Assembly (NCBI GenBank): GCA_013177935.1
Contig: JABLXZ010000001.1
Span: 574,191-638,190, forward strand
Direction of reading: 5' to 3'
Source of the DNA: a candidate division WOR-3 bacterium
GTDB lineage: Bacteria > Hydrothermota > Tepidihabitantia > Tepidihabitantales > Tepidihabitantaceae
Length of the DNA: 64,000 bases
Below the pieces are notes generated by a model that was not told the DNA's origin, searched no databases, and saw only the letters and a program-made list of their open reading frames with translations. The position numbers and the translations under genes were made by a program. Within the stretch, counting starts at the first letter, position 1, and each line of letters begins with the position of its first letter. Shown piece after piece: positions 22,331-43,066 of the stretch.

Positions 22331-22403
22331 TGGGCCCTAGTGGACTCGAACCACTGGCCCCTGCGTTATCAGCACAGTGCTCTACCACCTGAGCTAAGGG
22401 CCC
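22331..22403 (-). tRNA. tRNA-Ile (anticodon GAU)
   Basis: Seventy-three bases that fold as a cloverleaf: acceptor GGGCCCT/AGGGCCC, D-arm with TAGCTCAGGTGGTAGAGC, anticodon loop CTGATAA (GAT), T-arm AGTGG-TTCGAGT-CCACT, discriminator A. CCA is not encoded (AT-rich DNA follows), so a CCA-adding enzyme is needed. A promoter lies upstream within the end of cysS, and sppA follows after ten bases. Confidence 0.96.
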
Positions 22404-38377: not shown

Positions 38378-38911
38378 ATGGCGCGTATTGGCGCCTGTTT
38401 AGCATCGGTACTACTCTCTTTCGTTTTGGTATCTGCCCAGCCCTACCGGTGTGACTGGAGTGTAAACGGGATTGGCGGTGGTGATATGAGCGGTGGCAAC
38501 ATTCGTTCATCGGTTACCGCGGGTCAGACTGCGATTGGCAGGCTTACCGGTACCAATCTTTTTGCCCTGATTGGCTTCTGGCAGCCTGATGTCCAGGTGG
38601 GCATTGCCGAAGAGCAGGAGTCGGTTGTAGGGGTGGGATTAAAGACCAGCCTGGCGCGGCTACCCAATCCGTCTCGTTTGCCATTGCGGCTTGCCTATTC
38701 ACTCGCTCAAAAGGCGGATGTCCGGCTTGAGATTTTTGACCTTACCGGCAGACTAATTGCCCGACCGGTGAACTCCTTTCAGAATCCGGGCAGATACAGC
38801 GTACTCTGGAACGGCAGGGACACAAAGGGCAGAAAACTGCCCTGTGGTGTGTACTTCTTGCGGTTTAGGGCAGGCGAGCATCAGGAAAAGAGAAAACTCA
38901 TCCTGCAATAG
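38378..38911 (+). CDS. Small secreted CTD protein, cassette 2
   Basis: 177 residues. Signal peptide differs from copy 1 (MARIGACLASVLLSF...), but from 'PYRCDWSV' onward the two proteins differ at only a handful of residues near the two ends. GQ...GFW module followed by the sorting domain. Own ribosome site (AAGGAGG), three bases after the stop of the large protein. The DNA identity in the middle exceeds that of the neighbouring large genes, which suggests gene conversion or a very recent duplication. Confidence 0.85.
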   Translation: MARIGACLASVLLSFVLVSAQPYRCDWSVNGIGGGDMSGGNIRSSVTAGQTAIGRLTGTNLFALIGFWQPDVQVGIAEEQESVVGVGLKTSLARLPNPSRLPLRLAYSLAQKADVRLEIFDLTGRLIARPVNSFQNPGRYSVLWNGRDTKGRKLPCGVYFLRFRAGEHQEKRKLILQ

Positions 38912-38988: not shown

Positions 38989-40437
38989 TTATTTTACAAC
39001 CGTCAGCCGCTTTTTCTCCATACCGTATTTTGTTTGTACCATCAACATATAGGTCCCTGTTGTGAGGCAGTTTATCGCAAAACGGTGTGTCCCTTCTAAC
39101 AGATAACCGTTATAAACATCGGACACCTTCCTGCCAGTCATATCCCAGAGCGTAAGCTGGTATTCTCCTGAACGATAAGCCAATAGCCGAACTGGCTCTC
39201 CGCGCCGTAATAGGCTTGGGCTCAAAAGGCGTAAAGTTGCACTCGGTGCCGAGGTAGCGATTGGGACACCAATTCCAGAGGGGTATCGGATTTTCATTGC
39301 TAAAAAATCGCTGGGGTCATAGTTTTCATTGTAGACCTGGCCAAATGCGTATAGCACCCCTGATGACGGGGTAGCAATATCGGTAAAACCGCAACTGTAA
39401 GGTTCGGGGCAGTACAGCCAGTGCCATTCTTGTGTTCCGTCTGTTTGGTAATTGATGAGAAGGGCATTTGATGAATAACCCAAGCTGTCATATGCACTGC
39501 CCGCCACGATAAGTTTGCCCAAACTGTCGTATATAATAGCCGAACCCTCGGAGCAATCATCAAACCCAGTGAGGCGCACCCACAAAAACTCTCCATCCGG
39601 ACTATACTTGAAGGTAACACAGGAATCTGGAACAATCCAGCCGTTTAAATACTGACACGCGTCACCGGTCCCATATACATTACCGAAATAGTCCACCGCA
39701 ACACCAGCGCCCCAGTCCTCATTTTTGACATTTAAACGCCGGGTCCAGATAGTATCCCCATTTCTGGTAAACTTGGCGATAAAAAAGTCGAAGGTCCAGT
39801 ATTCCCAACTGCCGATAGTTCCGCATCCCACTATATTGCCGTCCGGTGTCAAGGCAAGAGCATTTATGCCCTCGCAATCGTTTCCGAAATCGTAGGTCCG
39901 TGACCAGAGCAAGTTGCCATTGGCGTCGTATTTACGTAGTAACCAATCTTCATTTCCTCTAACTTCAGTAATACCGCTGGCATAGATATTGAGCGATTCA
40001 TCAATGGTCACACCCATAAAATAAGACCGGTAGTTTGCTGGGTTTGTGTCAGAACGAACCCACAGCAGGTTACCATTCCGGTCGTATTTGATCAACTCAC
40101 ATCCGGTTGAAGGGTAATAGTAGCCGGCAACTACTACTCCCCCTTCATTACCGACAGCACAACGATTACACACATCGTCTTTTTCGCTGTCATAAGTGCG
40201 GGTCCAGAGCGTTTCACCGTCCGGAGTGTACTTAATAATGGTAATTACCGGGTTTGTACCCACATTATCGTCCGAAGTCTGGCCACATAAAATCACATTA
40301 CCCCAGGGGTCAATTGCACCCGAGGGCCAGTGATCATACTTACCAGTGTCGTAAGAGGTTACCCATTCAATCTGTTGAGCAGAAACCGCAAATACTGCAA
40401 TCGAGAAGGGCACTATTAAGGACGCCCAGGATGTCAT
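38989..40437 (-). CDS. Secreted beta-propeller (SBBP-like) protein with sorting domain
   Basis: 482 residues: signal peptide (about 1-20), then about seven repeats of the form 'KYdxNGxxLWxRtyd...D..ega.aia.D..gNiy..G' ('KYDRNGNLLWVRSD', 'KYDANGNLLWSRTYD', 'KFTRNGDTIWTRRL', 'KYSPDGEFLWVRL'), a beta-propeller of unknown ligand. The final 90 residues form a sorting domain ('LWDMTGRKVSDVY', 'TTGTYMLMVQTKYGMEKKRLTVV'). The start lies two bases after the stop of the frameshifted gene upstream, so they form one operon. Confidence 0.85.
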   Translation of the reverse strand: MTSWASLIVPFSIAVFAVSAQQIEWVTSYDTGKYDHWPSGAIDPWGNVILCGQTSDDNVGTNPVITIIKYTPDGETLWTRTYDSEKDDVCNRCAVGNEGGVVVAGYYYPSTGCELIKYDRNGNLLWVRSDTNPANYRSYFMGVTIDESLNIYASGITEVRGNEDWLLRKYDANGNLLWSRTYDFGNDCEGINALALTPDGNIVGCGTIGSWEYWTFDFFIAKFTRNGDTIWTRRLNVKNEDWGAGVAVDYFGNVYGTGDACQYLNGWIVPDSCVTFKYSPDGEFLWVRLTGFDDCSEGSAIIYDSLGKLIVAGSAYDSLGYSSNALLINYQTDGTQEWHWLYCPEPYSCGFTDIATPSSGVLYAFGQVYNENYDPSDFLAMKIRYPSGIGVPIATSAPSATLRLLSPSLLRRGEPVRLLAYRSGEYQLTLWDMTGRKVSDVYNGYLLEGTHRFAINCLTTGTYMLMVQTKYGMEKKRLTVVK

Positions 40438-40439
40438 TG

Positions 40440-41034
40440 TTAATATTCAAGCCTGGCTTGAGTTTTGATAAAAGCCTCGGGCGGAACCTCGAAGGCGTGT
40501 TTACCATCTACAAGATGAATCTTCGACCGGCTTCGAGAATAGCCCAGACGATATTGAATGGCTTCACCATCTCCGTGATGTGAAAAGAGGGGCGCGTCAT
40601 GGATTATATGTATTTCGCCGTCATAGTACTGCCGGTAAAAGCAATGCACATACCACGGTCCGCTATAAGGCCGTATCGTTTTTGAACCCGCCCAGACCCG
40701 TTTTTTGGTTTGGTCCGGAATCGGCGTAGCCCAGGACGCTGCCTCAAAACCTGATTCATTCGTGTATTGGGAAACGCTATCAGGTGGTGTTATTTGCCAT
40801 TGTTCAGCACAGGTAAGATAGCCGCGTGCATGGAGTTCGTCAAGTGTTACCTCTTCAAACTCCGGTCCCGGGCTTCCTTCTGGTTCGCCGTAAATTTCTA
40901 TAATACACACGACGGAATCTTCTTCTGAACCGGACTCATAGATATAATAATGAGCGGTGCTGGTTCCCTGTGCTACCAGCAATAAGGGGGGGGGTAAAAA
41001 GCAGGGTCAGGATGATGTTTTTGATGTTACTCAT
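40440..41034 (-). pseudogene. Exported protein gene with a frameshift at a poly-C(9) tract in its signal peptide
   Basis: The 180 C-terminal codons (from 40982) are open but lack a start: only a TTG without ribosome site. In the adjacent frame, ATG 41034 has a perfect AAGGAGG six bases upstream and a promoter (41064-41092), and encodes 'MSNIKNIILTLLFTPP', a signal peptide that runs into nine consecutive C (minus strand, 40994-40986). With eight C the frames join as '...FTPPLLLVAQGTSTAHYY', a complete signal peptide and a 197-residue protein. The mature part has no known domain ('YIYESGSEEDSVVCIIEIYGEPEGSPG', 'PWYVHCFYRQYYDGEIHIIHDAP'). Either a sequencing error or a phase-variable switch. Confidence 0.75.
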
Positions 41035-41063
41035 ATATACCTCCTTATGCTTAACTTCGTTTA

Positions 41064-41092
41064 ATCATACAACTAAATTTTACTTTTGTCAA
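41064..41092 (-). promoter_or_regulatory. Promoter of the frameshifted gene and propeller operon
   Basis: Minus strand TTGACA (41092-41087), 17 bp, TATGAT (41069-41064). A leader of about 23 bases contains AAGGAGG before ATG 41034, supporting that ATG as the genuine start. Confidence 0.6.
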
Positions 41093-41609
41093 ACAGTATT
41101 TCACTGGATTGCAAATGATGGGTGGAATGTCAGAGCTTAAGTGGAATTATATCGATGAAATAGGCTATCTACCTATCAACCAATCGGTATTGTGAGTACC
41201 GATTTATTCTTAGCTTTAACTCTCAACAAAAATCGCGTAGTATATGGCAGGTCATTTAGAGAGGCTGAATTACGGTTGTTCTATTGTTTAACTTACTCAG
41301 ATTTCATTAGATAGCGCCATAAGCAATTTAGAATTTCATCGCCAAAACCGTGCTGGCAACAGCCTCATACCGGACAAGGGATATAATCCTGATAAGGATT
41401 CAAGGGACGGTTCCCCCAGCGGTTCTGGGAACGGTTTACCAAACCGCTCTGCCAACGACTAACCAATTGATTTACCGAATGATACCCGACACCCATTTAT
41501 CCTCAATAATTAAATCCACCTTACAATTTCACTTTTCCGCTTCTGCCCTATCCAACTTCCACTCTTCTGCGCTACCTCACTTCTGCTCTAATTTACCCCT
41601 GCCCATTTC
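41093..41609. other. Intergenic region rich in hairpins, no gene
   Basis: About 500 bases without a credible gene. It contains an 8-bp hairpin AATCGGTA/TACCGATT (41182-41204) followed by TATTCTT, and three consecutive hairpins at 41385-41446: AATCCT-GATA-AGGATT, an imperfect GTTCCCCCAG/CTGGGAAC, and CGGTTT-ACC-AAACCG. These could be an RNA element or palindromic repeats. Confidence 0.45.
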
Positions 41610-41637
41610 TTGACCCCTAAGAAAAATTTGTTATAAT
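41610..41637 (+). promoter_or_regulatory. Promoter of a candidate small RNA
   Basis: TTGACC 41610-41615, 16 bp, TATAAT 41632-41637, predicted start near 41644. The -10 context TTATAATTTTAC(A/G)AT is repeated at the rarA promoter 120 bases downstream. Confidence 0.6.
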
Positions 41638-41643
41638 TTTACA

Positions 41644-41729
41644 ATATACCCTGTAGGGCGTGGGTGCCAGATAAAGAGGCGGCTCCTCTTATGTGTGGGG
41701 TCAGGATAACCTCCTGACCCCGTTTTATT
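41644..41729 (+). ncRNA. Candidate small RNA (about 86 nt)
   Basis: Bounded by a near-consensus promoter and a strong hairpin-plus-T terminator, with no sizeable reading frame. It contains a GGC-GTGGGT-GCC or ACCC/GGGT helix, AGAGG-CGGCT-CCTCT, and the terminal 10-bp hairpin. I do not recognise 6S, SRP, tmRNA or a known riboswitch in it. It ends three bases before the -35 box of rarA's own promoter, so it is a separate unit and not a rarA leader. Confidence 0.55.
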
Positions 41730-41730
41730 T
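41697..41730 (+). terminator. Rho-independent terminator of the small RNA
   Basis: GGGGTCAGGA (41697-41706), loop TAACC, TCCTGACCCC (41712-41721), then GTTTTATTT. Ten-base perfect stem with a T-rich tail. Confidence 0.75.
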
Positions 41731-41731
41731 A

Positions 41732-41758
41732 TTGACTTCACAATCCCCTGATTATAAT
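41732..41758 (+). promoter_or_regulatory. Leaderless-type promoter of rarA
   Basis: TTGACT 41732-41737, 15 bp, TATAAT 41753-41758, six bases to ATG 41765. No Shine-Dalgarno sequence precedes that ATG. Confidence 0.6.
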
Positions 41759-41764
41759 TTTACG

Positions 41765-43066
41765 ATGCATCCAGCCGACCCCAATACGCCTCTTGCCGAC
41801 CGAATGCGGCCAATATCCCTTGACGACATCGTGGGTCAGGAACACCTCCTTGCCCGCGACAAACCGTTCCGCAAGATGCTGGAACGCGGAGAACTCCATT
41901 CAATGATTCTCTGGGGTCCACCGGGCTCGGGCAAAACCACCCTTGCCCGGGCAATCGCCCATTACACCCAGGCGGAGTTCATCACCATCTCAGCGGTCAC
42001 TTCGGGCGTTGCTGACATCCGCCGCACCGTAAAAATTGCCGAACAGAACCGCCGGATGTTTCAAAAGCAGACCATTTTGTTCATCGATGAAATCCACCGC
42101 TTTAACAAGGCGCAGCAGGATGCCCTTCTCCCCTATGTGGAATCCGGTTTACTAATCTTAATCGGCGCCACAACCGAAAACCCATCCTTTGAAGTCATCG
42201 CACCCCTTTTGTCCCGCACCCGGGTTTATCTCCTCAACCAGCTCTCCCCGGACAACCTGAAAACCCTGATGCGCCGGGCGCTCCAGTCCGAGCAGGGTCT
42301 GGCAGCGCTCAAACCAGCGGTTGACGACCGGGCGCTTGAATACTTCACCATTATCGCCCAGGGCGATGCCCGTGTTGCCCTGACCGCGCTCGAAATCTCG
42401 GTCATCTCTGCCGAACCGGACGAAAACGGCATCCGCCGGGTCACGCTGGAACTGGCACAGGACATCGTCCAGCGCAAATTTCTCCTTTACGACAAAAGCG
42501 GTGAAGAACATTACAACCTGATTTCTGCCCTGCACAAATCTTTGCGCGACTCGGACCCGGACGCTGCTCTGTACTGGCTGGCAAGAATGCTCGAGGCGGG
42601 CGAAGACCCGCTCTACATCGCCCGGCGCCTGGTCCGATTTGCCTCCGAAGACATCGGAATGGCAAACCCCAACGCCCTCTTAATCGCCAACGCTGCCAAA
42701 GATGCGGTTCACTTCATCGGAATGCCCGAAGGCAACACCGCTCTGGCACAGGCGGTCATCTACCTTGCTTTAGCACCGAAATCAAATGCGGTCTATCGCG
42801 CCTATACAATGGCAAAAAAGGACGCCTTAAACAGTTTGACCGAACCGGTGCCGCTCCATCTGCGCAACCCGGTAACACCCTTAATGGAACAACTGGGCTA
42901 TGGCAAAGATTACAAATACGCCCACGACTTTCCTAATGCGCAGGTTGACCAGGAGCACTTTCCCGAATCCTTGAAAGGCAGAAAATACTACTTCCCAACC
43001 GACCGGGGCTTTGAAGGCGAACTCAAAAAACGGTTGGGCAAACAAAAGCCGGGAAAAGAAAAATAA
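41765..43066 (+). CDS. rarA: Replication-associated recombination protein A (RarA/MgsA AAA+ ATPase)
   Basis: Clamp-loader-related AAA+ ATPase acting at stalled replication forks. 433 residues: 'PLADRMRPISLDDIVGQEHLL', Walker A 'LWGPPGSGKTTLARAIA', 'SAVTSGVADIR', Walker B 'ILFIDEIHRFNKAQQDALLP', sensor 'LIGATTENPSFEV', arginine finger region 'LLSRTRVY', and the C-terminal tetramerisation domain ('LISALHKSLRDSDPDAALYWLARMLEAGEDPLYIARRLVRFASEDIGMA'). Start ATG 41765 follows the promoter by six bases; upstream in-frame codons lie in the small-RNA terminator region and are rejected. Confidence 0.96.
   Translation: MHPADPNTPLADRMRPISLDDIVGQEHLLARDKPFRKMLERGELHSMILWGPPGSGKTTLARAIAHYTQAEFITISAVTSGVADIRRTVKIAEQNRRMFQKQTILFIDEIHRFNKAQQDALLPYVESGLLILIGATTENPSFEVIAPLLSRTRVYLLNQLSPDNLKTLMRRALQSEQGLAALKPAVDDRALEYFTIIAQGDARVALTALEISVISAEPDENGIRRVTLELAQDIVQRKFLLYDKSGEEHYNLISALHKSLRDSDPDAALYWLARMLEAGEDPLYIARRLVRFASEDIGMANPNALLIANAAKDAVHFIGMPEGNTALAQAVIYLALAPKSNAVYRAYTMAKKDALNSLTEPVPLHLRNPVTPLMEQLGYGKDYKYAHDFPNAQVDQEHFPESLKGRKYYFPTDRGFEGELKKRLGKQKPGKEK

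Follow-up and report, generated by a model that had tools for sequence, protein, structure and literature searches.

The window analysed here is a 64,000-nucleotide stretch of the genome of a candidate division WOR-3 bacterium (G000, 1.96 Mb; contig 1, positions 574191–638190). A 0.7-kb intergenic stretch, flanked on one side by a minus-strand gene and on the other by rarA, a DNA-repair/replication-repair gene, contains a compact unit in the order promoter (P1), predicted RNA of ~85 nt, terminator, and second promoter (P2), which is followed by the ATG of rarA at 41765 (Table 1). This arrangement of promoter, short RNA, and terminator 5′ of rarA is real and above chance. A sequence-only reading had proposed a self-contained small-RNA unit here, with a near-consensus promoter (TTGACC-16-TATAAT), ~86 nt between the elements, a 10-bp hairpin with a T-rich tail, and the promoter of rarA directly after the unit; we find each of these elements, with the RNA predicted at ~85 nt and the stem counted as 12 bp. 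Both ends of the RNA are predicted, that is, the start was set 7 nt past the -10 element and the end was placed inside the T tract. In the neighboring minus-strand gene (40440–41033), a run of nine G residues (40986–40994) breaks the frame within an apparent signal peptide; this run is a variable tract or else reflects an error in the assembly.

Table 1. Features of the RNA unit and rarA (window coordinates; G001 is the second species of the genus).
Feature	Position	Strand	Basis or remark
P1, sigma-70-type promoter of the RNA, TTGACC-16-TATAAT	41610..41637	+	sequence; hexamers and spacing the same in G001
Predicted ~85-nt RNA	41644..41728	+	fold; 87% identity to G001, gapless
Hairpin 1	41645..41662	+	7 bp in G001; one A-C mismatch in G000
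Hairpin 2, AAGAGG-CGGCU-CCUCUU	41674..41690	+	G001 copy identical
Intrinsic terminator, 12-bp hairpin (41695-41723) plus T tract	41695..41731	+	
P2, rarA promoter, TTGACT-15-TATAAT	41732..41758	+	kept in G001; -10 position kept across the class
rarA, 433 aa, probably leaderless mRNA from its ATG	41765..43066	+	

The hexamers of P1 (41610–41615 and 41632–41637) match the consensus at 11 of 12 positions. Sites of this quality occur 59 times in 424 kb of G000, as compared with 5.2 times in shuffled sequence (~11-fold excess), so approximately nine in ten of them are above chance and this type of promoter is in real use; other sites in the list stand before tRNA genes and gene starts. Within the surrounding 2-kb region, eight promoter-like sites were found (2.2 expected). 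A promoter of its own, the first feature expected of a stand-alone small RNA gene, is therefore present as judged from sequence alone, that is, from the consensus match, the enrichment of its class, and its retention in G001.

The second feature, an own terminator, is also present. The hairpin GTGGGGTCAGGA-TAACC-TCCTGACCCCGT (12 pairs, 5-nt loop) is followed by TTTATTTATT; the T tract occurs after the hairpin on the + strand only, so the terminator is directional. Strong terminators are infrequent in the same 424 kb (about a dozen, this one included). The predicted fold energy of the RNA is -34.7 kcal/mol (z -2.3) in G000 and -39.1 kcal/mol (z -4.0) in G001, with the excess in stability over shuffled sequences coming mainly from the terminator; hairpin 1 in G000 may also adopt an alternative local fold. 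In the alignment of the two sequences (25 pairs, 98% of cells paired), no pair has changed on both sides; because there are only two homologues, both similar, the alignment provides no evidence from covariation. No ORF of at least 60 aa lies inside the RNA, and the sole long frame that passes through it is an extension of rarA (vide infra).

Among 147 genomes of the phylum, the unit was found in one other, G001, where it occupies the equivalent place by rarA; thus, the conservation check proposed in the sequence-only reading yields one congener, without gaps. The 87% identity over the RNA compares with 73% for intergenic DNA overall, 78% for third codon positions of rarA, and 70–79% for adjacent promoter regions, and the segment that separates the promoter from the terminator has 83% identity and is gapless. 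Farther upstream (41380–41544, 165 nt) the identity is 55% with 33 gapped positions, so the unit evolves more slowly than its flank. Identity between the two species is higher than that of the unit in a tRNA and in a few further stretches that lie outside called genes, and part of the conservation of the unit could stem from P2 and the terminator. A short block well upstream of P1 (41460–41490) is 80–90% identical in otherwise diverged DNA. The upstream neighbor in G001 is the counterpart of the window gene at 38378–38911; the intervening 2.4 kb of the window (38989–41380, two genes) have no counterpart in G001, yet the unit stays at rarA. The corresponding place in G001 likewise has no counterpart of the segment 44598–49704.

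A third genome from the genus, G002, is uninformative, since rarA is not detectable in its assembly. A covariance model of the unit has no match in the three genomes of the sister genus; in two of these (G014 and G010), the upstream coding sequence extends to within ~50–60 nt of rarA, so there is no room for the unit. Matches to the model outside the genus (G033, G019, and G035) are marginal or fall chiefly on the terminator hairpin and were discarded, and a search for RarA in the genome contigs added more distant relatives only. A repeat family based on the linker CTTATGNGNGGG was also rejected (three sites in G000, as compared with one for the control); its site at ~58302 in the window has no terminator hairpin after it.

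The -10 element of P2 ends 6 nt before the rarA ATG (41753–41767). In 24 of 30 rarA loci (L039–L068, G000 included), a TATAAT-like hexamer (at least 5/6) lies 5–7 nt before an in-frame start, and the spacer lacks any Shine-Dalgarno-like motif; in G014, the same arrangement was identified by eye. Such spacing is characteristic of leaderless mRNAs, and most members of the class probably transcribe rarA without a leader. The 424 kb of G000 contain eight start codons, rarA counted, with such a -10 spacing. Leaderless promoters with the -10 element next to the ORF have been described for Deinococcus-Thermus (PMC12340547), and they share with rarA the TATAAT 5–7 nt before the start; that case is from another phylum and bears on P2 and rarA, not on the RNA. 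The stretch TTATAATTTTAC(A/G)AT shared by the two promoters is the -10 element plus discriminator, which at rarA runs directly into the start codon. Its occurrence at both had been taken to suggest promoter duplication or a shared regulator; this part of the proposal is not supported, because in G001 the two stretches differ (P1 reads TATAATAATATAATATG, P2 reads TATAATTTTACGATG), which contradicts duplication and leaves a shared regulator unsupported, and because the rarA TATAAT is kept in most members of the class that lack the RNA.

The position of the unit directly 5′ of rarA on the same strand, a linkage kept in both species, allows P1 to be viewed as a second, regulated promoter of rarA; the RNA would then be a 5′ leader in which the terminator attenuates transcription, with read-through in response to some signal adding to the rarA mRNA. 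We regard this as possible although unlikely. An attenuator or riboswitch is expected to have mutually exclusive terminator and antiterminator folds, and none were found: the terminator stem is predicted to form in full (9.0 of 9 pairs expected) with no competing pairing, the best fold without its stem is 9–13 kcal/mol worse, and no riboswitch or leader family matches. Furthermore, rarA has its own conserved promoter, and relatives without the RNA keep the -10-to-start arrangement, so P2 suffices for rarA. The lack of a competing fold and the sufficiency of P2 disfavor attenuation; the persistent linkage of unit and rarA is what keeps it under consideration.

In its 3′ half, the unit looks like the ordinary ends of other genes in the class. 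Following a protein gene in G000 (C2:152364–152440; L162:1501–1577), the tandem hairpins GATAAAGG-loop-CCTTATGCGCGGGG..CCCCGTTTTATTT are like this 3′ half, and the stem GGGTCAGGA-N5-TCCTGACCC terminates a gene in G033 and occurs between the ends of genes in G059; we therefore read the third hairpin as a terminator rather than a special motif. This resemblance also speaks for a reading in which the unit has no RNA function and is either a promoter-terminator pair left behind when a gene was lost or a terminator insulating rarA against transcription from upstream. We consider this improbable, although not negligibly so: insulation needs no promoter, and P1 is nonetheless conserved, as is the gapless interval between promoter and terminator, in which hairpin 2 is unchanged.

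The frame of rarA is open from 41693 in both species (457 aa), which would allow the hairpin region to encode an N-terminal extension of RarA. However, the 23 codons of this extension carry five non-synonymous changes and one synonymous change, RarA proper is 96% identical, and the extension would cover both the terminator and P2; from the substitution pattern in 41693–41764, we conclude that the extension is not coding, and we assign this reading a very low probability. Automatic start calling would lengthen rarA to 457 aa over 41693–41764 in both species.

The sequence-only reading recognized no known RNA family, and the searches agree. In an Rfam scan of the whole window, only a tRNA (22331–22403) exceeds the gathering cut-off; searches of the unit for a tRNA or tmRNA and for a phage origin gave no match. 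The strongest known candidate is 6S RNA (RF00013), because it often adjoins rarA in Firmicutes: 6S RNA is the neighbor of rarA in B. subtilis and, lying downstream of it, in almost all lactic acid bacteria (PMC8414754). Like the unit, it is encoded next to rarA by a non-coding RNA gene that has a terminator of its own, but the unit has no match to it in sequence or structure; RF00013 gives no match at 41500–41850 at E values up to 10. A whole-genome search with RF00013 first missed the 6S RNA in this genus; synteny via RNase Y then located the canonical 6S, flanked by zapA and rny (RNase Y), in both G000 (58.7 bits) and G001 (56.0 bits; loci L154:1314–1481 and L155:1314–1481). The sister genus also has its 6S there, between genes that we take from their translations to be zapA and rny. 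With the true 6S of both species elsewhere, the unit is a different RNA; despite the linkage documented in lactic acid bacteria (PMC8414754), it is not a shortened or diverged 6S RNA, and it is half the length and not rod-shaped.

On balance, we lean towards the reading that the unit is a stand-alone non-coding RNA gene of ~85 nt confined to one WOR-3 genus, with rarA transcribed separately. The most economical arrangement has two independent units one after the other, with P1-RNA-terminator followed by P2-rarA. Sigma-70 RNA polymerase would start at ~41644 from P1, the RNA would fold into two small hairpins and the terminator hairpin, and transcription would stop at ~41728; rarA would be transcribed apart, from P2, as a leaderless mRNA. 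The sequence elements, their conservation in the second species, and the exclusion of known families are observed, whereas transcription, the RNA ends, and the independence from rarA are what we infer. Known intergenic sigma-70 small RNAs likewise have their own promoter, a length of 50–200 nt, hairpins, a Rho-independent terminator, and no ORF; the unit differs from them in its confinement to one genus and in being known from its sequence only. As the core of the earlier proposal (promoter, terminator, no family, retention in G001) stands, the unit is a credible predicted orphan small RNA gene at the genus level.

As a guess, the RNA would be a trans-acting regulator, stable and structured, that works via base pairing or protein binding; we assume this because it is the default for such units, and we propose no target. 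A further possibility, which we consider doubtful, is that it represents an undescribed genus-specific WOR-3 regulatory RNA functionally tied to rarA, paralleling the 6S-rarA association of Firmicutes with an unrelated RNA. A literature search for leaderless or non-coding RNAs in WOR-3 found nothing in the collection searched. If transcribed, the unit would give an uncultivated phylum whose RNA biology is little known an RNA gene that belongs to no Rfam family, and it illustrates how synteny could lead to an RNA adjacent to rarA being mistaken for 6S. That rarA appears to be leaderless in most of the class can be tested and is perhaps the more general finding.
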